From Desulfobacteraceae bacterium (GTDB lineage Bacteria; Desulfobacterota; Desulfobacteria; Desulfobacterales; JAABSP01), in NCBI GenBank assembly GCA_011390345.1, contig JAABSP010000046.1, positions 1 to 41,712 of the forward strand: a stretch of DNA of 41,712 nucleotides, in the 5' to 3' direction. A program made the position numbers and the translations under genes. This document shows positions 1,143-40,863 of this stretch, in pieces. The number at the start of each line of letters is the position of its first letter. Position 1 is the first letter of the stretch. The notes below the pieces were generated by a model, which had not been told where the DNA came from, made no database searches, and saw only the letters and a list, made by a program, of their open reading frames with translations.

Positions 1143-2162
1143 TTACAGGAGCGCCTCGGCATACTTTCCCGGATCAAAGGGCTGCAGGTCCTCGATATCC
1201 TCCCCGACGCCGATATACCGAACCGGAATATTCATTTCATTGCATATACTGATAACGATGCCGCCCTTTGCGGTCCCGTCCAGCTTTGTCATGGCGATTC
1301 CAGTCACGCCGATGGCCTCATGAAAGAGCTTCGCCTGGGAGACCGCATTCTGCCCCGTGGTGGCATCCAGCACCAGAAGGATCTCCTGGGGTGCGTCGGT
1401 CATCTTCTTCTGCAGTGCCCTCCGGATCTTCTTCAGCTCCTCCATCAGGTTCACCTTGGTGTGAAGCCTGCCCGCGGTGTCGATCAATACGATCTCTTTG
1501 CCCCGGGCCTTTGCGGCCTCCAGTCCGTCAAAGGCAACGGCTGCCGGGTCCGCATTCTCCCGGTGGCGGACAAAGTCCGCGCCGGCTCGCTCCGCCCAGA
1601 TCTCCAATTGTTCAACGGCTGCGGCCCGGAAGGTATCAGCCGCGGCAATCAGCACCGACTTTCCCTCCTTCTGAAAATGCGCGGCCAGCTTCCCGATGGT
1701 GGTCGTCTTTCCCACGCCGTTCACTCCCACCACCATGATCACATGGGGTTTTGAAAGAGACCTTTTTTCCTGATCTTCGGGAAACTCGATCAGGGCGAGA
1801 ATCTCCTCCTGCAGCGCACTGCGCAGGGAGTGCGGGTCTTTGATCTTCCCGGCCCGGCCCGACAGGTTCTCCATGATGGTCATGGTGGTGGCAACGCCGA
1901 GGTCGGCCGTGATCAGACGCTCTTCGATTTCCTCTGCAAAATCATCAAATGCCCTCCCCCCGGCAAAGAGATCCTCGATATCGGTGGTCAGAAGATCCCG
2001 GGTCTTTGAAAGCCCGTTTCTCAATCGGCCGAAAAGGGGCTTCCCATTCTTCTCCTTTCCGTTCTCTTTTTTATCACCGCGGTTTTCCTTCCCGACAACG
2101 GCCTCCCGGACCGCCTCGTTCTCCTTCTTATCCTTTTTATCCTTCCGGCTGAACCATGCCAT
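1143..2162 (-). CDS. ftsY: Signal recognition particle receptor FtsY
   Basis: SRP receptor GTPase that delivers ribosome-nascent-chain complexes to the membrane translocon. The 339-residue chain opens with a highly charged linker (the A domain), followed by the N domain and the NG GTPase core. The P-loop GVNGVGKTT lies near residue 146, then DTFRAAAVEQL, the G3 box DTAGRLHTK, and TKLDGTAKGG as G4. The ATG at 2162 (MAWFSRKDKK) was chosen because AAGGAAAAG lies just upstream as a ribosome-binding site; an in-frame TTG at 2189 would add nine residues. The start overlaps the end of smc by 26 nt, so the two genes are translationally linked. Confidence 0.96.
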   Translation of the reverse strand: MAWFSRKDKKDKKENEAVREAVVGKENRGDKKENGKEKNGKPLFGRLRNGLSKTRDLLTTDIEDLFAGGRAFDDFAEEIEERLITADLGVATTMTIMENLSGRAGKIKDPHSLRSALQEEILALIEFPEDQEKRSLSKPHVIMVVGVNGVGKTTTIGKLAAHFQKEGKSVLIAAADTFRAAAVEQLEIWAERAGADFVRHRENADPAAVAFDGLEAAKARGKEIVLIDTAGRLHTKVNLMEELKKIRRALQKKMTDAPQEILLVLDATTGQNAVSQAKLFHEAIGVTGIAMTKLDGTAKGGIVISICNEMNIPVRYIGVGEDIEDLQPFDPGKYAEALL

Positions 2163-29428: not shown

Positions 29429-30862
29429 TCAGCGGCCCTGGAGCCCGTGCTTTCGAAGAAGTTCATAGAGCCGGGGCCGGGAGAGCCCTGACATCACGGC
29501 CGCGGCCTTGATGTCGCCGTCGCTCTTCTCCATCAATGCCCGGAGGTATCGCTGCTCCTCCTGATCGAGCAGCCTTCTGCGGAATTTTTTCCAGGGAAGA
29601 AGAATCCCGTCAATGTTTTTGACACAAATCCGGTCGCCCTTTTCCGGAACCGAGGCTTCCGAGACTTCGGCCTGGGCAGGCTCTCCGAAAACGGCCCGGG
29701 CAACCTCAATCCGGATCTGGGGGGGCAGATGCTTCGGATAGAGCACCGGCTCATAGAGGGACTGGGCCATCACCCATTCCAACGCGCTGAAAAGCTCTCG
29801 AACATTTCCGGGCCACCGGTATGCGCAGAGTTCCTCGCAGAATTCCGGTGAAAAATCCTTCACTTCCAGGCCGTGGGACCCGCAGAGACGCTCGATGTAG
29901 TGCTCTGTCAGAGGGCGGATATCCTCGACGCGCTCCCGGAGCGGCGGAAGTTCCAGGGTAATGGAACGAAGCCGGAAAAGCAGATCATCCCGAAACTTCC
30001 GCCGCCGGACCATCTCCTCCAGATCCCGATTGGTGGCCGCGACCAGCCGAAAATCGCTTTCGATCTCCTTTGTGGAGCCTACCGGATGAAAACGCTTCTC
30101 CTGAAGCACCCGAAGCAGGGATTTCTGGGCAGACAGCGTCAGCTCCCCGATCTCGTCAAAGAAGAGGGTTCCGCCGTCTGCATGTTTCACCAGACCGTCT
30201 GTGGCCTTGTCCGCGCCCGTAAATGCCCCTTTTGCATGGCCAAAGAGGATGCTCTCCATCAGCGTCTCCGGCAGAGAACCGCAGTCCACAACCACGAAAT
30301 TCTTCTCGGAACGGCTGCTGTTGTTGTGAATGGCCCTGGCAAAGAGTTCCTTTCCGGTTCCGGTCTCCCCCGTAATCAGGATGTTGGCATGGCTCTGGGC
30401 CGCCCGGGCCACCAGCTCTAGACACTCCTGGATCTTCGGGCTCTCCCCGATGATGTTTTCCCGGCGAATTCGGGTTCGGGGCCGGTTGGCCAGTTTCTCG
30501 CGCCGGTAATCCAGAGCCCGCTTCAGGGTCATGCTCATGGCATCTATGGAGGCCGGCTTCCGGATATAGTCCCAGGCATTGTTCTTGATGGCGATTTCCG
30601 CACCGTCCGCGTCGGCAAATCCGGTGATGATCACCACCTCGGGCAGGGAGGGTGCGGCCTGGATTTCTCCGATATGGCTCAGGCCATCCCCGTCCGGCAG
30701 GCGAACATCTAAAAAGACCACGTCATAGGGGTTCTGGTTGGCCTTCTCCAGCCCTTCCTTCAGGGAGTAAGCAAGGTTCACATCATGTTCCATGTCCGAA
30801 AAGATCCGGTTCATGGTGTCGCAAATCATCCGATCGTCATCGATCACTAACAGTCGTGCCAT
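29429..30862 (-). CDS. Sigma-54-dependent response regulator (NtrC family)
   Basis: A 477-residue transcription activator. The receiver domain (residues 1-120) has the acidic pocket IDDD near 7-10, phospho-acceptor Asp52 in LDVRLPDGDG, and Lys102 in RKP. The AAA+ domain carries Walker A GETGTGKE (165-172), the sigma-54-contacting GAFTGA loop (212-217), and Walker B GTLFFDEIGEL. The C-terminal Fis-type helix-turn-helix is DIKAAAVMSGLSRPRLYELLRKHGL. Phosphorylation should come from the histidine kinase encoded just upstream on the same strand. It would activate sigma-54 promoters; one such promoter precedes the kinase gene itself. Confidence 0.95.
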   Translation of the reverse strand: MARLLVIDDDRMICDTMNRIFSDMEHDVNLAYSLKEGLEKANQNPYDVVFLDVRLPDGDGLSHIGEIQAAPSLPEVVIITGFADADGAEIAIKNNAWDYIRKPASIDAMSMTLKRALDYRREKLANRPRTRIRRENIIGESPKIQECLELVARAAQSHANILITGETGTGKELFARAIHNNSSRSEKNFVVVDCGSLPETLMESILFGHAKGAFTGADKATDGLVKHADGGTLFFDEIGELTLSAQKSLLRVLQEKRFHPVGSTKEIESDFRLVAATNRDLEEMVRRRKFRDDLLFRLRSITLELPPLRERVEDIRPLTEHYIERLCGSHGLEVKDFSPEFCEELCAYRWPGNVRELFSALEWVMAQSLYEPVLYPKHLPPQIRIEVARAVFGEPAQAEVSEASVPEKGDRICVKNIDGILLPWKKFRRRLLDQEEQRYLRALMEKSDGDIKAAAVMSGLSRPRLYELLRKHGLQGR

Positions 30863-31031: not shown

Positions 31032-33059
31032 CTATTTTTCAGTGAGGATTCGACCGATGATTTCCGTGAGGTTGACCGAGGTGATGGGTTTCATGACAAA
31101 CTCTCGAATCCCCTGCTGCAGGGCTTCTTCCCGGCTGATGATCTCACTGAAACCTGTGCAGAGGACAATGGGAAGATCCGGACGCAGGGCCAGCATCTCC
31201 CGGCTCAACTCGATACCGGTGGCCCCGGGCATGGTCTGGTCTGTGACCACGAGATCAAAGCTGTCCGGATTCTTTCGGAAACGATTGAGCGCAGCCAGTC
31301 CATCGGTCTCTCCGGTCACGGTGTAGCCGCTTTCGGTCAGTAATTTCCCGATGATCCGGACCACAGGGGCCTCGTCATCGATCACCAGAATCCGCCCTTC
31401 CCCCGGAGGCGCCGGACTGAATGCCTCAGACGCCTCTTCCGAAAGGGTCCCCTCATGTTCCGGAAAATAGACATCGAAACGGGAGCCCTGATCGATCCGG
31501 CTTTCGACTTTGACAGCCCCGCCCATCCCCTCGATGAGACTGTGAACCATGGCAAGCCCCATGCCGGTTCCCTCCCCGGGCGGTTTGGTGGTGAAAAAGG
31601 GCTGGAAAATCTGATCGATTCGCTCCTGAGACATACCTTCTCCGGTATCGACCACCCCCAGCCGGAGATATCGGCCCGGCTTGAGATGCGGACGGGCCAG
31701 GGGCTCCTCCTTTTCGATGCGGCAGCGGCTCAGCTCCACTGTCAGCACCCCGCCCCGACGGCGCATGGCATGGGCCGCATTGGAGCAGAGATTGATCAGC
31801 ACCTGCTGGATCTGAACCGGATTGCCTAAAACAGCGCCCGTTTCCGGCTCGATATTCTGCCGGATCTCCACGGTTGCAGGCAGTGAGGCTCTCAGCATCT
31901 TGATCGATTCCTTGATGATGGGACCGATGATCAAAGGACTCTTTTTCTGCTCCTCTTTGCGGCTGAAGGTAAGGATCTGCTCCACCAGATCCCGGGCTCG
32001 ATAGGCCGCACGGAGAGAGAGGTCCAGGCTCTCCCTGATGCCGTTGCTCCCCTCCCACTTCCGCAGCACGAATTCGGTGTTCATCATGATGGTCATCAGG
32101 ATATTGTTGAAATCATGCGCGATTCCGCCGGCAAGGGTTCCGATGGCCTCCATCTTCTGCGCATGGCGGAGCCGGTTCTCCAGCAGCACCTCATGGGTGA
32201 TATCCCGGGCAGCGATGATGATATGGGTAACGCTCTCCTCCTCTAAAGAGAGCGGGGAGATCAGCAGATCCTTCCAGCCCTTGCGACCGTTGGTCTCGGT
32301 CCATTCATGGCGGATACTGCGGAACCGGCCCGATCGGAAAACCGCCTGCAGCACCTCATCCCGCTCTTCAAAAAGCCCCCTCAGACAGGTAAAGATCTCC
32401 TTGCACGGCTTTCCAATGGCATCCTTTCGAGCAGATCGGGCAGAGGCCAGATAATCCCGGTTCATGTCAACGATGTCATAATTGCGGTCCAATATCACAA
32501 TTTCATCATTCATGCTCCGCAATACCGACTGATAATAGGCCTCACTCTCCCGGCAGACGGCCCGCTGCTGATCGAGCCGGTCCAGCATCCGATTGAACTC
32601 CGCCGCCAGCACCCCGATCTCATCGGCCCGCTTGGAGGCGTATCGGAAATGGGTCTCTCCGCTCTCCCGAATGGTCTGGATATGGCTGAGAAAACGGGTC
32701 AAAGGCTTCAAAATCATCCAGTGCAGAAGAAGAAGAATGGCGCTGATGAGAAGGATGTCCAGGAGCAGCCGAAAGAGCCAGTAGTATGGATCTCCCTCCG
32801 GGGCAATGGGGCCGAAGCGGTGGCGGAACAGAAGGTATTCCGTCTCCGCCTTTAGCAGGAAAAGGAGCAGAAGGGCGATCAATGTCTTTGAAGTCAGTTT
32901 CACGGGCAGAAAATTATCAAAAGAAGGGTTTATTGGCGGTTGTAAGTCTTGGGAGGGACTCGGTTTCGGTTTATTTGTTTCAGCGGTTTGATGATATAAA
33001 AAAGATGAGGGGGGTTTTCTAAGACGTTGATAAGGCCGATAAGTTTTTTTTGTAGTCAT
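31032..33059 (-). CDS. Hybrid sensor histidine kinase
   Basis: A membrane kinase with a C-terminal receiver. In the 675-residue reading from ATG 33059 there are two membrane segments (around TLIALLLLFLLKA and LLLDILLISAILLLLHW), a HAMP linker, a PAS domain (about residues 170-290), the dimerisation helix with His315 in GIAHDFNN, the ATP-binding domain (NAAHAM, DTGEGM, GTGMGLAMVH), and a receiver with Asp607 in VVTDQTMPG. The start is uncertain: no ribosome-binding site is obvious. GTG 32903, right before the first membrane segment, is a good alternative, and ATG 33131 lies upstream of the predicted transcription start. The cognate regulator follows after 169 bp. Confidence 0.92.
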   Translation of the reverse strand: MTTKKTYRPYQRLRKPPSSFLYHQTAETNKPKPSPSQDLQPPINPSFDNFLPVKLTSKTLIALLLLFLLKAETEYLLFRHRFGPIAPEGDPYYWLFRLLLDILLISAILLLLHWMILKPLTRFLSHIQTIRESGETHFRYASKRADEIGVLAAEFNRMLDRLDQQRAVCRESEAYYQSVLRSMNDEIVILDRNYDIVDMNRDYLASARSARKDAIGKPCKEIFTCLRGLFEERDEVLQAVFRSGRFRSIRHEWTETNGRKGWKDLLISPLSLEEESVTHIIIAARDITHEVLLENRLRHAQKMEAIGTLAGGIAHDFNNILMTIMMNTEFVLRKWEGSNGIRESLDLSLRAAYRARDLVEQILTFSRKEEQKKSPLIIGPIIKESIKMLRASLPATVEIRQNIEPETGAVLGNPVQIQQVLINLCSNAAHAMRRRGGVLTVELSRCRIEKEEPLARPHLKPGRYLRLGVVDTGEGMSQERIDQIFQPFFTTKPPGEGTGMGLAMVHSLIEGMGGAVKVESRIDQGSRFDVYFPEHEGTLSEEASEAFSPAPPGEGRILVIDDEAPVVRIIGKLLTESGYTVTGETDGLAALNRFRKNPDSFDLVVTDQTMPGATGIELSREMLALRPDLPIVLCTGFSEIISREEALQQGIREFVMKPITSVNLTEIIGRILTEK

Positions 33060-33102
33060 TAGAAGGTACGGAAATGACCAAAACCGAGTCGATGATTGTA
33101 GA

Positions 33103-33118
33103 TGCGAAGAGCGTGCCA
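33103..33118 (-). promoter_or_regulatory. Sigma-54 (-24/-12) promoter of the histidine kinase gene
   Basis: On the minus strand, TGGCAC, five bases and TCGCA give GG-N10-GC, the invariant sigma-54 spacing. It differs from the TGGCAC-N5-TTGCA consensus at one base. Transcription would start near 33092 and run into the kinase gene, whose partner regulator is a sigma-54 activator, so the pair may control its own expression. Confidence 0.6.
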
Positions 33119-33221
33119 AAGAGACGATCATTTTAATTTCATTTTATTTCAATAGGTTAAATTTTTGCTGCAGATGGGGATCTTTGGGAGATGGATTTTA
33201 TTATGATAAAACCATATTGAA

Positions 33222-33242
33222 TTGTATGGAAAAATCATACAA
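33222..33242. promoter_or_regulatory. Palindromic operator or enhancer between kinase gene and ppdK
   Basis: TTGTATG (33222-33228) and CATACAA (33236-33242) form a perfect 7 bp inverted repeat with a 7 nt AT-rich centre. It is about 105 bp upstream of the sigma-54 promoter, a normal enhancer distance for NtrC-type regulators. It also ends one base before the -35 box of the divergent ppdK promoter. Confidence 0.5.
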
Positions 33243-33243
33243 A

Positions 33244-33272
33244 TTGACAAATGCTCTGCCTTTTTTTACCAT
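33244..33272 (+). promoter_or_regulatory. Sigma-70 promoter of ppdK
   Basis: TTGACA (33244-33249) and TACCAT (33267-33272, four of six consensus bases) are separated by 17 bp. The ppdK start codon is 62 bp downstream. The palindrome at 33222-33242 abuts the -35 box, so a protein bound there could repress or activate. Confidence 0.6.
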
Positions 33273-33334: not shown

Positions 33335-36058
33335 ATGGCAGAAAAATGGGTTTATCTTTTTGAGGAGGTCGAGTCCGCAGAAAAGGATGCAGGGGGAAAC
33401 TGGGAAGGAGTGCGCGCCCTGCTGGGAGGCAAGGGGGCCAATCTTCTCGAGATGACGCGCATTGGTGTGCCGGTTCCCCCCGGCTTCACCGTCACCACAA
33501 GGGCCTGCAACGCGTTTCTGGAAGAAGGCAGCATCTTTCCCGAGGGGCTCTGGGAGCAGGAGCAGGCGGCCATGCACCAAGTGGAGGAGCAGACCGGCAA
33601 AAACTTTGGAGATCCGGAGAACCCGCTACTGGTCTCCTGCCGTTCCGGGGCGATGTTCTCCATGCCCGGGATGATGGACACGGTGTTGAACATCGGCCTC
33701 AATGACGAGACTGTGGCGGGGCTCTCCCGGCTCACCGGGGATGAGCGGTTCGCGTATGATTCCTACCGGCGCCTGGTTCAGATGTTCGGCAATGTGGTGA
33801 TGGGGGTCCCGGACGAGATCTTCGAAGAGGTGATCGAAAGAGTCCGGGAGAAAAAGGGAGTGGAGACCGACGCGGAGCTGACGGCCGAGGATTGGAAGGC
33901 CATTACCGAGCGCTTCAAGACCCTTTTCAAGATCCACACCAAGCTCGATTTCCCGATGGACCCCTATATCCAGTTGATGCTGGCCACCGAGGCGGTCTTC
34001 AAAAGCTGGAACGGCAAGCGGGCCGCAGATTACCGGAACGCGGCCGGGATCGCCCATGATCTGGGAACCGCGGTGAGCGTCGTCACCATGGTCTTCGGCA
34101 ATCTGGGAAACGATTGTGCGACCGGCGTGGCCATGACCCGGAACGGCTCCACCGGAGATAAGCGGATCGAGGGGGATTATCTCACCAATGCCCAGGGCGA
34201 GGATGTGGTGGCCGGCACCCGGATGACCAAGGATATCTCCCAACTGGCCGATGAGATGCCCGAGGCCTGGCAGGAGCTGGAGGAGATCGTCAACCGGCTG
34301 GAGACCCACTACCGGGAGATGCAGGATGTGGAGTTCACCATCGAAAAGGGCAAACTCTGGATGCTCCAGACCAGAGACGGAAAGCGCACCGCGCAGGCTG
34401 CTGTCCGGATCGCGGTCGATATGGTCCAGGAGGAGCTGATCTCCACAGAGGAGGCGGTTCTCCGGGTGAAGCCGGAGCATGTGGACTTCTTTCTCCACCC
34501 TCAGTTCAGCATCGAGTCCGTGGATTCGGCAGAGGAGATGGGGCAGTTGCTGGCGACAGGGCTCAATGTCTCCCCCGGGGCAGCGGTCGGAATCGTGGCT
34601 ATGGATGCTGATCTTGCCGAAGCCTGGTCCAAGGAGGGCAAGGATGTGATCATGGTCCGGCCCGAGACCAAGCCGGATGATGTTCACGGGATGCTGGCGG
34701 CCCGGGGCATTCTCACCAGCCGGGGGGGGCGCACGAGCCATGCGGCCCTGGTGGCCCGCCAGTTCGGGAAGCCGGCCGTGGTGGGGGTCTCTGCGCTCAA
34801 GCTGGACATGGGGAAGCGGGTGATCCGGGTGGGGGACCGGGTGATCCACGAGGGTGACCCCATCTCCATTGACGGGACCCTGGGCCGGGTCTACGAGGGG
34901 AAGCTGACCACAACGGTTCCCGACATCCATGATGAATGGCTCATCCAACTGCTGAAATGGGCCGACACCTTCCGGACTCTGGGGGTCTGGACCAACGCGG
35001 ACTATCCCAAAGATGCAGAACGGGCCCGGGAATACGGGGCTCAGGGCATCGGCCTCTGCCGCACCGAGCATATGTTTCTGCAGGCCGAACGGCTCCCCTT
35101 TGTCCAGCGGATGATCATGGCCGACCTCCCCTTTGACCGGAGAGAGGCCATCAATGCGCTGCTCCCGTTCCAGCGGGAGGATTTCGTAGGGCTTTTTCAG
35201 GCCATGGACGGCCTTCCCGTGGTGATCCGGCTCATCGATCCGCCCCTGCACGAGTTTCTGCCCGATTTTGTGGAGCTGATGCAGAGCCTTTCGGACCTGA
35301 AAATCCGGCTCCAGCACGCTGACAACCTGCATAAGATCGACGAGCTGCTGGATGAGATCAAGAAAAAGCAGGCGATCCTGAAGCAGGTGGAGCGGCTGCG
35401 GGAGTCCAACCCCATGCTCGGGATGCGGGGGGTGCGGTTGGGCATCCATATTCCGGAGCTGACCCGGATGCAGGTGCGGGCCATCTTCGAGGCGGCCTGT
35501 GCGGTCTCCAAGGAGGGGATTTCGGTCCATCCCGAGGTGATGATCCCCCTCACCAGCCATGCCAACGAGCTGAAGCATCAGCGGGTAACGCTCGAGGCCG
35601 AGGCCCGGCAGGTGATGGAGGAGCAGCGGATGGAGATCGACTACAAGTTCGGCACCATGATCGAGATCCCCCGGGCCGCACTGACCGCGGACGCGATCGC
35701 GGAGTATGCCGGATTTTTCTCCTTCGGCACCAACGATCTGACCCAGACCACCTACGGGATCTCCAGGGATGACGCGGAATCGGACTTCCTCATCGAGTAC
35801 ATGGAGGGCGGGATTCTGCCCAACAACCCCTTTGCGATTATCGACCCGGATGGTGTGGGCGAGCTGATGCGGATCGCCATTGAAAAGGGCCGGAAGGTCA
35901 ACCCGGATCTGGAGTGCGGCATCTGCGGCGAGCATGGCGGAGAGCCCCAGTCCATCGCACTCTGCCACCAGCTCGGGCTCAACTATGTCTCCTGCTCACC
36001 GTTCCGGGTTCCCGTGGCCCGGCTGGCCGCGGCCCATGCCGCGATCAAACAGCGGTAG
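33335..36058 (+). CDS. ppdK: Pyruvate, phosphate dikinase
   Basis: A 907-residue dikinase that interconverts pyruvate, ATP and Pi with PEP, AMP and PPi. The N-terminal ATP-grasp begins VYLFEEVESAEK and has GGKGANLLEMTRIGVPVPPG. The phosphohistidine domain has His469 in GGRTSHAALVARQFGKPAVVG. The C-terminal PEP/pyruvate barrel contains GIGLCRTEHMF, SFGTNDLTQTTYG and the catalytic Cys864 in CGICGEHGGEP. Length and motifs match PPDK, not PEP synthase. GAGG precedes the ATG by a short gap. With PPi-phosphofructokinase elsewhere in the window, it suggests PPi-linked, reversible glycolysis. It has its own promoter and faces the two-component system. Confidence 0.97.
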   Translation: MAEKWVYLFEEVESAEKDAGGNWEGVRALLGGKGANLLEMTRIGVPVPPGFTVTTRACNAFLEEGSIFPEGLWEQEQAAMHQVEEQTGKNFGDPENPLLVSCRSGAMFSMPGMMDTVLNIGLNDETVAGLSRLTGDERFAYDSYRRLVQMFGNVVMGVPDEIFEEVIERVREKKGVETDAELTAEDWKAITERFKTLFKIHTKLDFPMDPYIQLMLATEAVFKSWNGKRAADYRNAAGIAHDLGTAVSVVTMVFGNLGNDCATGVAMTRNGSTGDKRIEGDYLTNAQGEDVVAGTRMTKDISQLADEMPEAWQELEEIVNRLETHYREMQDVEFTIEKGKLWMLQTRDGKRTAQAAVRIAVDMVQEELISTEEAVLRVKPEHVDFFLHPQFSIESVDSAEEMGQLLATGLNVSPGAAVGIVAMDADLAEAWSKEGKDVIMVRPETKPDDVHGMLAARGILTSRGGRTSHAALVARQFGKPAVVGVSALKLDMGKRVIRVGDRVIHEGDPISIDGTLGRVYEGKLTTTVPDIHDEWLIQLLKWADTFRTLGVWTNADYPKDAERAREYGAQGIGLCRTEHMFLQAERLPFVQRMIMADLPFDRREAINALLPFQREDFVGLFQAMDGLPVVIRLIDPPLHEFLPDFVELMQSLSDLKIRLQHADNLHKIDELLDEIKKKQAILKQVERLRESNPMLGMRGVRLGIHIPELTRMQVRAIFEAACAVSKEGISVHPEVMIPLTSHANELKHQRVTLEAEARQVMEEQRMEIDYKFGTMIEIPRAALTADAIAEYAGFFSFGTNDLTQTTYGISRDDAESDFLIEYMEGGILPNNPFAIIDPDGVGELMRIAIEKGRKVNPDLECGICGEHGGEPQSIALCHQLGLNYVSCSPFRVPVARLAAAHAAIKQR

Positions 36059-36943: not shown

Positions 36944-37783
36944 ATGACCCTGTCCGACACAACCGAAACCTTCGGCCGCTCCCTGCTCCAGTACGGGCCA
37001 TTGAGCAGCCGGGTCTATCTGATGCGCCTTTCAGAATCCGATTTTCCCAAGATAATCTTCGAGATGGAGCGGATCGCGCGAAAAGGGGGATACGGCAAGG
37101 CCCTGGCCAAGGTTCCCGCGGATGCCGGCCCCCTTCTGGAAGAGAAAGGCTACCATCCCGAGGCCCGGATACCCGGATATTACCACGGCCGCACCGACGG
37201 GCTCTTCATGTCCAAATACTTCTGCCGAAACCGGGGGCAGGAGCGCCATCCCGGCCGCATCCGCAAAACACTGGCGCTGCTCTCGACAAAGGGGGCAAAG
37301 ACCCGCCCCCCGAAGCAGAACTCCGGCCTTATCCTCCGGGAGTGCAGCCCCGAAGATGCCCGGGAGATGAGCCGCATCTTCCGAAATGTCTTTTCCACCT
37401 ACCCCTTTCCGGTGTATGATCCCGGGTTTTTAAAGGAGATGATGGCATCCGGGGAATCCCGATACTTCTGCCTGACGGACCGGGGAAAGATGGCCGGAAT
37501 CGCCGGAGCCGAGATCGACCCGGAACACGGCAACGCGGAGATGACCGACTTTGCGGTCCTGCCGGAATACCAGGGGCAGCATCTGGCTGCAGCGCTTCTT
37601 GTTCACATGGAGGCCGAGATGGCCCGAATGGGGATCTCCACCCTCTACACCATTGCCAGAACCCTGTCGCCGGGCATCAACATCACCTTCAAACGGGCCG
37701 GCTACACCCTGGCCGGGAAGCTGACCAACAACACCCAGATCTGCGGAGGGATCGAGAGTATGTGGGTCTGGTACAAACGATGA
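36944..37783 (+). CDS. ablB: Beta-lysine N-acetyltransferase
   Basis: A 279-residue acetyltransferase that forms N-epsilon-acetyl-beta-lysine, a compatible solute, from beta-lysine. The N-terminal half has the family pattern GYHPEARIPGYYHGRTDGLFMSKYF without its own fold name. The C-terminal GNAT domain (about residues 130-279) has the acetyl-CoA loop LPEYQGQHLAAALL and ends NNTQICGGIESMWVWYK. The ATG at 36944 follows AGGAGG by nine bases. The usual partner, lysine 2,3-aminomutase (ablA), is not in this window. The stop codon overlaps the fic start (ATGA), an unusual coupling. Confidence 0.88.
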   Translation: MTLSDTTETFGRSLLQYGPLSSRVYLMRLSESDFPKIIFEMERIARKGGYGKALAKVPADAGPLLEEKGYHPEARIPGYYHGRTDGLFMSKYFCRNRGQERHPGRIRKTLALLSTKGAKTRPPKQNSGLILRECSPEDAREMSRIFRNVFSTYPFPVYDPGFLKEMMASGESRYFCLTDRGKMAGIAGAEIDPEHGNAEMTDFAVLPEYQGQHLAAALLVHMEAEMARMGISTLYTIARTLSPGINITFKRAGYTLAGKLTNNTQICGGIESMWVWYKR

Positions 37784-38835
37784 AAAGCTTTGAACCCGCA
37801 TACCTGGCCGCGCTTCGGATTCCGACCCGCCTCTTTTCCGTAATCCGCCAACTGGGGGAGCACAAGGGAAAACAGGCACTCTATCATCAGCAGGCCCCGG
37901 AGATTCTGGAGCGGATGCGAAAATCGGCCGTCATCCATAGCACCATCTCCTCCAACCGGCTGGAGGGCATCACGGCCGGAACCCGCCGGATCAAAGATCT
38001 GATGGCGGAGAAGACCGCGCCGGCCAACCGCTCCGAAGCCGAGATCGCGGGGTATCGGGATGTGCTCAATACGATTCATCGCAGCCATCGCAGCATCCCT
38101 TTCACAGATGGCATCGTGCTGCAGTTCCATCGGGATCTGATGAAGTATGCGGGAAAAGAGGGAGGACGGTGGAAATCGACGGACAACACCATCACCGAAG
38201 CCCTGCCGGACGGAACCCGCCGGTTCCGTTTCGAGCCGGTCCCGCCCTTTTTGACGCCGGAATACATGGAAAGCCTTCACCGGGACTACCGCCGGGTCTC
38301 GGCCGAGGGGGAATGGGACCCGCTGATCCTGATTCCCTTCTATATCATCGACTTCCTCTGCATCCACCCCTTCCTGGACGGCAACGGCCGGATGGCCAGG
38401 CTGCTGACGGTGCTGCTGCTCTATCACAACGGCTACGAAGCGGGCCGTTATATCAGCTTGGAACGGATCATCGAAGGGACCCGGGAATCATATTATGACA
38501 CGCTTTACCGTTCCTCTCAGGGATGGCATGAGGGGCGTCACGATATCTGGCCCTGGGCCGAATATTTTCTGGGGGTGGTGCTGGCGGCCTATGCCGATTT
38601 TCAGGAAAGATTCGACAGACAAAGGGAAGCGCCGGGCAGCAAGACCAAAAGGGTAATGGATGCTGTCGAGGGATTCGAAACGGATTTCAGCATCTCGGAA
38701 CTGGAAAGAGTCTGCCCGAATGTGAGCCGGGACATGATCCGCCATGTACTCTTTCAACTTCGGGATCAGGAGAAGATCGAAGCGGTGGGGCGAGGAAGGG
38801 GGGCCAAGTGGCGGAAGATGAAACCGGATGGATAA
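37780..38835 (+). CDS. Fic family protein (putative AMP transferase)
   Basis: A 351-residue Fic protein. The catalytic motif HPFLDGNGRMAR starts at His196. The N-terminal helix carries the inhibitory (S/T)xxxE(G/N) motif (Ser58 to Glu62-Gly63, SNRLEG) on the same chain, so it is a self-inhibited class II Fic. A DUF4172-like N-terminal domain (MKSFEPAYLAALRIPTR) and a C-terminal winged-helix part (about residues 290-351) frame the core. Fic enzymes AMPylate target hydroxyls on proteins; the target here is unknown. The ATG at 37780 overlaps the ablB stop. A second, closely similar fic gene begins at 41479. Confidence 0.93.
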   Translation: MKSFEPAYLAALRIPTRLFSVIRQLGEHKGKQALYHQQAPEILERMRKSAVIHSTISSNRLEGITAGTRRIKDLMAEKTAPANRSEAEIAGYRDVLNTIHRSHRSIPFTDGIVLQFHRDLMKYAGKEGGRWKSTDNTITEALPDGTRRFRFEPVPPFLTPEYMESLHRDYRRVSAEGEWDPLILIPFYIIDFLCIHPFLDGNGRMARLLTVLLLYHNGYEAGRYISLERIIEGTRESYYDTLYRSSQGWHEGRHDIWPWAEYFLGVVLAAYADFQERFDRQREAPGSKTKRVMDAVEGFETDFSISELERVCPNVSRDMIRHVLFQLRDQEKIEAVGRGRGAKWRKMKPDG

Positions 38836-40249: not shown

Positions 40250-40474
40250 ATGCGTACAACCGTAACTCAAGTCGGCAATTCGACCGGCGTTATCCTCCCA
40301 AAAGAGGTCGTTGCCCGGCTCAAGTTGAAGAAGGGCGACAGCCTCTTTCTCACGGAAACGCCCGATGGATATATGATCACACCCTATGATCCGGAATTCG
40401 AAGAACAGATGGGGGCCGCCCACCGCGGCATGGCAAAGTATCGGAATGCATTGCATGAGCTTGCCGGGAAATGA
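40250..40474 (+). CDS. AbrB/MazE-type antitoxin
   Basis: A 74-residue swapped-hairpin AbrB protein. The DNA-binding part is MRTTVTQVGNSTGVILPKEV, with VARLKLKKGDSLFLTE completing the barrel. The C-terminal ~30 residues (EFEEQMGAAHRGMAKYRNAL) form the helix that neutralises the toxin. The ATG follows GGAGGTGA. Its stop codon overlaps the doc ATG (ATGA), so antitoxin and toxin are translationally coupled. It should bind its own promoter at 40193-40220 and repress the pair. It lies between CRISPR repeat 3 and a degenerate repeat copy. Confidence 0.88.
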   Translation: MRTTVTQVGNSTGVILPKEVVARLKLKKGDSLFLTETPDGYMITPYDPEFEEQMGAAHRGMAKYRNALHELAGK

Positions 40475-40863
40475 TCTGGCGCTGGCTCCGGGAAGATGTC
40501 ATCATTGCCGTTCATGGAGAACAGATCGCGGAACATGGCGGAAGCCTCGGCATTCGGGATTCGGGTCTGCTTTCCTCTGCACTTGACCGTCCCCGTAACC
40601 GGGCTGCTTACGAAAAGCCTTCGGTTTTCGATCTTGCGGCCGCTTATGCCTTCGGCATTATACGAAATCACCCTTTTCTGGATGGAAACAAGCGCACAGG
40701 CTTTCTCGGAGCCTTCATTTTCCTTGACCTCAATGGTTGGGAACTGAGGGTGTCGGAAGCTGAAGCCGTGGCGACCGTTTTGGCGCTTGCTACAGGAGAG
40801 ATGGATGAAGCCGGTTTTTCGGCTTGGTTAAAGGACCGCAGCGTCAGGGAAATGTCGCCCTAA
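40471..40863 (+). CDS. doc: Doc-type toxin (Fic fold kinase)
   Basis: A 130-residue Doc toxin of normal length. The catalytic motif HPFLDGNKRTGF starts at His67, with NKR in place of the NGR of AMP-transferring Fic proteins. Doc phosphorylates elongation factor Tu and so stops translation. The N-terminal IRDSGLLSSALDRPRNRAAY is also diagnostic for the family. The partner is an AbrB-type antitoxin in place of Phd, a known alternative. The gene appears intact. GC content is close to that of its neighbours. Confidence 0.93.
   Translation: MIWRWLREDVIIAVHGEQIAEHGGSLGIRDSGLLSSALDRPRNRAAYEKPSVFDLAAAYAFGIIRNHPFLDGNKRTGFLGAFIFLDLNGWELRVSEAEAVATVLALATGEMDEAGFSAWLKDRSVREMSP

Follow-up and report, generated by a model that had tools for sequence, protein, structure and literature searches.

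The DNA analysed here (the window) is the 41,712-nt contig JAABSP010000046.1 of a Desulfobacteraceae bacterium whose genome we call G000; coordinates refer to the forward strand. Our subject is the intergenic stretch at 33,103–33,272, which has genes for a hybrid histidine kinase and an NtrC-type response regulator on one side and the divergent ppdK gene on the other (Table 1). An initial annotation of this DNA proposed that one palindrome both enhances the signalling genes, through a sigma-54 promoter of the kinase gene, and controls gluconeogenesis through ppdK.

Table 1. Features of the locus and the places in G000 where sites and promoter occur together
Feature	Position	Strand	Remarks
NtrC-type response regulator, proposed activator	29429..30862	-	REC, AAA+ with GAFTGA (Pfam Sigma54_activat), Fis-type HTH
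Hybrid histidine kinase	31032..32903	-	HAMP, PAS, HisKA, HATPase, REC; re-assigned start GTG 32903 (VKLTSK...)
Proposed small RNA gene, ~135 nt	32956..33091	-	directly after the sigma-54 promoter
End stem, 15 bp	33077-33091 with 32956-32970	-	outermost pair open in the window copy
Sigma-54 (-24/-12) promoter, predicted	33103..33118	-	TGGCACGCTCTTCGCA, GG-N10-GC
Upstream activating site 2 (proximal), putative	33201..33217	.	imperfect palindrome, minus strand ATATGGTTTTATCATAA
Upstream activating site 1 (distal), putative	33222..33242	.	perfect palindrome TTGTATG-N7-CATACAA, TTGTATGGAAAAATCATACAA
ppdK sigma-70-like promoter	33244..33272	+	TTGACA-17-TACCAT; consensus match only
ppdK, pyruvate phosphate dikinase	33335..36058	+	neighbour, not conserved with the RNA
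Four site-plus-promoter places in G000	window; C82:50352; C25:69115; C196:26969

The tandem sites and the sigma-54 promoter

The palindrome, which the initial annotation had placed about 105 bp upstream, is present without mismatches at 103 bp from the sigma-54 promoter. It is the only match with up to three mismatches in the window, where 0.48 would be expected. Its reported contact with the -35 box of ppdK is also borne out, in that one base separates it from the TTGACA (33244-33249) of a sigma-70-like promoter that matches the consensus at 10 of 12 positions. The sigma-54 promoter differs from the consensus TGGCACGNNNNTTGCW by one mismatch and is the sole match of that quality in the window, with 0.235 expected in Markov-simulated sequence. 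Site 2, whose centre is 23 bp from that of site 1, scores 20.1 bits with a weight matrix that was trained on site 2 itself among others. The window has four palindromes with perfect 7-bp arms and a 7-bp spacer, versus 3.55 expected, and the probability of finding such a palindrome within the intergenic stretch is ~0.03 for the 7-bp spacer and ~0.33 for any spacer of 0-14 bp. By itself, neither the palindrome nor the promoter is clearly beyond chance. We accept them as real because the arrangement of site plus promoter recurs at three other places of G000. A further sigma-70-like match (TTGTCA-18-TACAAT, 33221-33250, minus strand) overlaps the palindrome and faces the RNA and the kinase; it is a possible basal promoter.

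The recurrence was found by searching G000 (4.79 Mb in 199 contigs) for the palindrome, with C or A permitted at one position per arm. There are 27 places with at most two mismatches, versus 8 in a reversed control. Of the best five, which have at most one mismatch, four are accompanied by a correctly oriented GG-N10-GC promoter at a distance of 103-105 bp. A palindrome-like site thus precedes three such promoters besides that of the window, as a search proposed in the initial annotation was meant to find. The fifth place, on contig C11, has no GG-N10-GC promoter at that distance, nor does any of the 12 inspected among the 22 places with two mismatches. When the core of site 2 is joined with the sigma-54 promoter into one exact pattern, G000 contains exactly four matches, which are the four RNA genes described below, and the reversed control contains none. 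Across ten genomes, the pattern additionally matches the RNA copy of G002 and one place in G094 (contig C112), where no RNA was found, and it fails to detect the RNA promoters in G001 and G003. This exact pattern is neither sensitive nor fully specific.

All seven RNA copies that we found have a GG-N10-GC promoter and tandem sites, the latter 82-147 bp upstream of the promoter and 22-23 bp apart. Site 1 is degenerate (15.8-22.2 bits) in the three orphan copies, i.e., those of G000 outside the window. In G001, the activator site upstream of the RNA promoter (locus L046) sits within a tandem ATGATTT run. At the orphan copies on C82 and C25 (loci L059 and L060), an inverted partial copy of the RNA's 3′ end lies just upstream of site 1, hinting at the origin of the duplications.

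The conserved element downstream of the promoter

The seven copies comprise four in G000, detected by blastn with window positions 32945-33125 (E ≤1.3e-27) and by an RNA model, R1 (E ≤6.4e-30), and one in each of the relatives G001, G002 and G003 (blastn, E ≤4.8e-19). In every copy the unit has the same order: two palindromic sites, an unconserved spacer, the sigma-54 promoter and the RNA element. Mean pairwise identity is highest in the element (75%) and the promoter (72%), followed by the sites (65%); the spacer has 37%, and outside the unit the values are 34% downstream and 23% upstream. The element is 133-138 nt long, starts 12-15 nt past the -12 GC with (C/U)(G/A)ACUCGGUUUyGGU and has a far end nearly complementary to this start.

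These two ends form the 15-bp end stem. Across the seven copies, 104 of 105 cells are paired, a level reached in none of 500 partner shuffles, and sliding the partners against each other lowers pairing to at most 50.5%. Three stem pairs are altered on both sides, including C-G to U-A and G-C to A-U at the base. None of the 500 shuffles equalled the observed covariation score or the number of cells with changes on both sides, but 122 had as many pairs altered on both sides (three) and 479 as many further pair types. The changes at the stem base are common to all three relatives and may be single events. Coming from seven related sequences, the covariation is support for the predicted stem, not proof of it. 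Folding each sequence singly gives z-scores of -4.0 to -5.1 in all seven copies. The interior is predicted to be mostly unpaired, yet it contains long invariant stretches (AUCGGCCUUAUCAAC, UACCUUC and AUCAAACC); two small interior helices proposed by RNAalifold have no covariation support and one broken cell. Since no terminator-like hairpin was found at any of the four G000 copies, the 3′ end of the putative RNA is placed from the stem alone.

We considered whether the element might be a protein-coding gene and rejected this reading because the frame of its AUG differs among the copies: five copies use one frame, and the window and G002 another. The frames are 11, 20, 25, 41 and 43 amino acids long, and two copies are open into the kinase (in the window from the AUG at 33059, and likewise in G001). 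No Shine-Dalgarno sequence was seen before the AUG. The frame that contains IGLIN is open in five of seven copies, from 11 to >100 amino acids, and may reflect a former or residual peptide. At all three orphan copies, the next downstream open reading frame (ORF) lies on the opposite strand, which favours a stand-alone RNA over a leader. The ORFs at these and the other loci are mechanical calls, not annotations.

A truncated fragment of the RNA's 5′ part is also present on contig C50 of G000 (L076, 33126-33157; a 32-base blastn match, E 1.7e-5). It has neither the sigma-54 promoter nor the rest of the element, and its neighbours look like tRNA genes.

We also looked for the RNA in other genomes. 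By blastn against 194 relatives, the best E-value beyond the four family genomes (G000-G003) is 0.0026; 158 genomes have some match at E ≤1, where short matches were taken uninspected. R1 was run on 389 genomes of the same order and 389 of the same class, two draws that overlap, and yielded no further member at E ≤0.01. The class run reached this threshold in the four family genomes only; the order run gave 24 additional genomes with matches at E 0.03-1, which we judged to be chance without inspection. A degenerate pattern applied to the genome_contigs collection (described as covering 84,980 species) matched only the three relatives, whose records are the Desulfobacteraceae bacterium MAGs JAABTE010000034, JAABTD010000291 and JAABTM010000011, besides a single Caldivirga contig, which R1 did not confirm as a member. 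No match was found in phages or plasmids (blastn) or in viral contigs (exact pattern), and Rfam searches with three copies at E up to 10 returned only weak unrelated matches off the RNA. Among the matches listed in literature searches on GlmY, Qrr and sigma-54 small RNAs of Desulfo-bacteria or Deltaproteobacteria, we recognised no description of this RNA. A computational prediction of noncoding RNAs reportedly exists for Oleidesulfovibrio alaskensis (PMC11124144).

The neighbouring genes and the candidate regulator

The initial annotation identified the partner regulator as a sigma-54 activator, and its GAFTGA motif and Sigma54_activat domain agree with this. Its assignment of the GG-N10-GC promoter to the kinase gene has to be modified: the promoter stands, but its immediate product is most likely the small RNA rather than the kinase. 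The kinase gene probably begins downstream of the element, at GTG 32903. We preferred this start to those at 33131 and 33059, which were set aside, because, of these candidates, only the [V/M]KL...K start is common to G001 and G003 alike. It lies 52 nt from the end of the element, and 169 bp separate the kinase gene from the regulator gene.

In G001-G003 a hybrid kinase gene lies in the ~2 kb between the RNA and the downstream regulator homologue, as in the window, so that the order RNA, kinase, regulator holds in all four family genomes searched. The regulator beside the RNA is the best homologue of each relative genome (60-65% identity). Among the family's hybrid kinases, Pfam detects HAMP in that of the window only. 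Outside the family, regulators of G094 (62%) and G068 (59%) are similar in identity to that of G002 (60%), yet blastn over the 194 relatives found no RNA copy in these two genomes. Two Fic/DOC-domain genes lie near each other elsewhere in the window (37762-38835 and 40471-40863).

We then asked whether the site accompanies related regulators. A weight matrix was trained on 14 family sites, with Markov sequences as simulated controls, and applied to 26 loci of regulator homologues from other families, with flanks of up to 1.5 kb. For the own and family loci (L016-L018, L021), such flanks end short of the sites, hence no sites were scored there. Sites of at least 15 bits number 9 at the regulator loci, versus 1.22 expected. 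Three of the 26 loci (in G068, G035 and G030) have such a site 97-116 bp before a sigma-54 promoter that is free of mismatches to our own degenerate consensus, in each case on the downstream side of the regulator gene. The other 23 have no strong site before a sigma-54 promoter within these flanks. In G046, a 26-bit site lies just behind the regulator, and the sole GG-N10-GC candidate is ~220 bp off. Near the C-terminus, the family regulators share PR(L/V/I)YELLRK with those of G035 and G094, in a comparison of 20 of 30 regulators kept by a length or motif filter (L020 and L024 are among the 10 left out); no strong site was found near the G094 regulator. Pilin-like ORFs follow mismatch-free sigma-54 promoters downstream of regulator homologues in G030 (L053) and G062 (L051), and related regulators may control pili.

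Because the site precedes sigma-54 promoters beside related regulators at these three of 26 loci, the NtrC-type regulator is the likely binder, and the tandem sites are probably bound by the regulator encoded next to them. Of the proposal that one site serves both flanking transcription units, the part that puts sigma-54 enhancer logic before the two-component genes is thus retained, given the synteny in four of four genomes and the motif beside homologous regulators. Since the pattern of site 2 and sigma-54 promoter matches only the four RNA genes in G000, the small RNA is likely to be the regulator's main output in this genome, although a looser definition of the site could add further targets.

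The proposed control of gluconeogenesis through ppdK is not supported by the relatives. In both G001 and G003, the ppdK orthologue (80-81% identity) is on a contig other than that of the RNA and has no site pair upstream: the best score in G001 is 5.6 bits, and G003 has one single 15.3-bit match ~180 bp upstream. In G002, whose genome is 73% complete, no close ppdK match was found. A lack of palindrome conservation at related ppdK regions, which the initial annotation had itself named as a refuting result, is therefore what we observe, and it counts against the ppdK half of the proposal. In place of the divergent ppdK of the window, the gene before the RNA in G001 and G002, to which this comparison extends as the G003 contig has only ~460 bp upstream of the element, is PtsP-like and has the same direction as the RNA. 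A PtsP-like ORF of G000 (L206, on C145) is on the minus strand, away from the RNA, as judged by eye. Binding at the palindrome could affect the abutting -35 box in G000 alone, and the link to ppdK is an accident of G000 gene order, or at most lineage-specific.

Interpretation and comparison with known systems

We propose that the intergenic stretch controls a new small RNA gene that is present in four copies, driven by sigma-54, activated by the regulator and acting in trans by base-pairing; we assign this reading a probability of about 0.76. The hybrid kinase would relay a signal to the NtrC-type regulator, which would bind the two tandem palindromes (in the seven copies, these lie ~80-150 bp upstream of the promoter) and activate RNA polymerase-sigma-54 at TGGCAC-N5-TCGCA. 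Transcription would start within a few bases of 33091 and yield an RNA of ~135 nt whose 5′ and 3′ ends pair in the stem. The three sibling copies would be co-activated through the same type of site. Action in trans is likely because the three orphan copies have no same-strand ORF behind them, and the RNA would most likely base-pair with mRNAs through its invariant, unpaired, pyrimidine-rich segments. Read-through into the kinase gene may provide positive feedback.

Seed searches for mRNA targets gave no convincing or conserved target site. All eight non-RNA matches to complements of CCCCCCUCAUCUUU with at most one mismatch fall inside mechanical ORFs; for complements of a 15-nt invariant segment, we inspected the six non-RNA matches with at most one mismatch and left out many with two. 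An exact copy of this 15-nt segment, in the same orientation, is present in the ilvD leader of G000 (contig C60), inside a leader peptide rich in Leu, Ile and Val and before a terminator. The locus (L168, ~1300-1560, minus strand) looks like a branched-chain amino acid attenuator, with leader peptide MNFIGLINLISLIILLVVGILLCVEDKGLIMAF and a terminator hairpin, and several other genomes also have candidate Ile/Leu/Val-rich leaders before ilvD. In G002 and G003 the ilvD leader contains the segment with one mismatch. The G001 leader lacks it (best match with five mismatches), and so do nine further ilvD upstream regions (best 3-6 mismatches, where L213 is doubtfully anchored); a tenth, L218, was not anchored, and the examination covered 11 of 19 ilvD loci. 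As evidence of a target, we judged the identity to be chance or codon bias of the leader peptide. A different use of the RNA is nevertheless conceivable, in which it serves as a display or decoy, binding a protein or mimicking the ilvD attenuator, and the two-component system doses its four copies. The rigid end stem around a large invariant open interior and the 15 bases shared with the attenuator are the basis of this idea, which we regard as unlikely relative to ordinary base-pairing.

It is also important to consider that the element might act in cis, as a 5′ untranslated leader of the kinase mRNA that controls the kinase and has no role in trans. It ends shortly before the kinase start in the same order in all four family genomes, and no terminator was found after it. 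However, three of the four G000 copies stand alone, with the next ORF on the opposite strand, and still retain sites, promoter and element; a purely cis-acting leader therefore seems improbable to us. The inverted ends, the four copies in G000, the truncated fragment at C50:33126 and the inverted partial 3′ ends at C82 and C25 might instead suggest a MITE-like mobile repeat with terminal inverted repeats, in which promoter and sites are passengers. Against this, each of the three relatives has a single copy in the same syntenic place, the stem has compensatory changes, and the promoter and sites, which are not part of the inverted repeat, show almost the same degree of conservation as the element. 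In addition, the element was not found on phages, plasmids or viral contigs. We consider a mobile repeat very unlikely. Slightly less likely still is the original picture of a sigma-54 promoter for the kinase gene whose palindrome also controls the divergent ppdK. The single base between palindrome and -35 box speaks for it, but in G001 and G003 ppdK is at another place and lacks the site pair, a PtsP-like gene takes its place in G001 and G002, and the sites accompany the RNA at three other G000 loci.

Among known systems, a similar arrangement is that of GlmY and QseE/QseG/QseF (GlrK/GlrR) in Enterobacteria, which shares the order of RNA, kinase and sigma-54 regulator as well as the upstream sites. 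The GlmY gene lies directly upstream of the operon for the kinase and the sigma-54 response regulator, in a gene order that is conserved, and its sigma-54 promoter is activated by QseF bound at upstream sites (PMC6075780, PMC8745638). In Proteus mirabilis glmY is co-transcribed with the operon (PMC8745638), but in E. coli qseEGF has a sigma-70 promoter of its own (PMC6075780). It is by analogy with glmY-qseEGF that we suppose the regulator to activate the RNA gene and, if transcription reads through, perhaps also its own operon. The parts nevertheless differ. Three copies of the new RNA have no Rfam GlmY match at E up to 10, and there are four sibling copies here. The site is TTATG-N7-CATAA, whereas the QseF site is given as TGTN12ACA (PMC6075780). 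The window's regulator scores 308 bits versus the NCBIfam GlrR cut-off of 763, its kinase is a PAS-REC hybrid, unlike QseE, and the 169-bp gap between kinase and regulator has no room for a lipoprotein gene as in qseEGF.

Other systems resemble the locus in single respects. The Qrr RNAs are under LuxO/sigma-54 control, and the likeness lies in several sibling RNAs under one sigma-54 regulator. Such siblings are described for Vibrio (PMC4211561). Three copies of the new RNA have no Rfam Qrr match, and the regulator scores 287 bits versus the LuxO cut-off of 800. 6S RNA has a long end stem around a large open region, and its architecture is thus alike; the new RNA has no Rfam 6S match, and it has a sigma-54 promoter and several copies. 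Among sulfate reducers, a response regulator with an adjacent small RNA is exemplified by DVU0679 of Desulfovibrio vulgaris, whose mapped target is Dv_sRNA2, of unknown function, downstream of its own gene (PMC3333781). That position is unlike that of the new RNA, for which the genome_contigs pattern gave no confirmed member beyond the known relatives.

If correct, our reading would give the Desulfobacteraceae-like bacteria an additional RNA family, one that has no match in Rfam, together with a readable enhancer code, the tandem TTATG-N7-CATAA. By comparison with GlmY, the wiring of RNA, kinase and sigma-54 regulator is here built from apparently unrelated parts, suggesting that it arose more than once. 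Because the pattern of site 2 and sigma-54 promoter marks only the four RNA genes, one RNA may be the main output of a two-component system, which would make its function directly testable.
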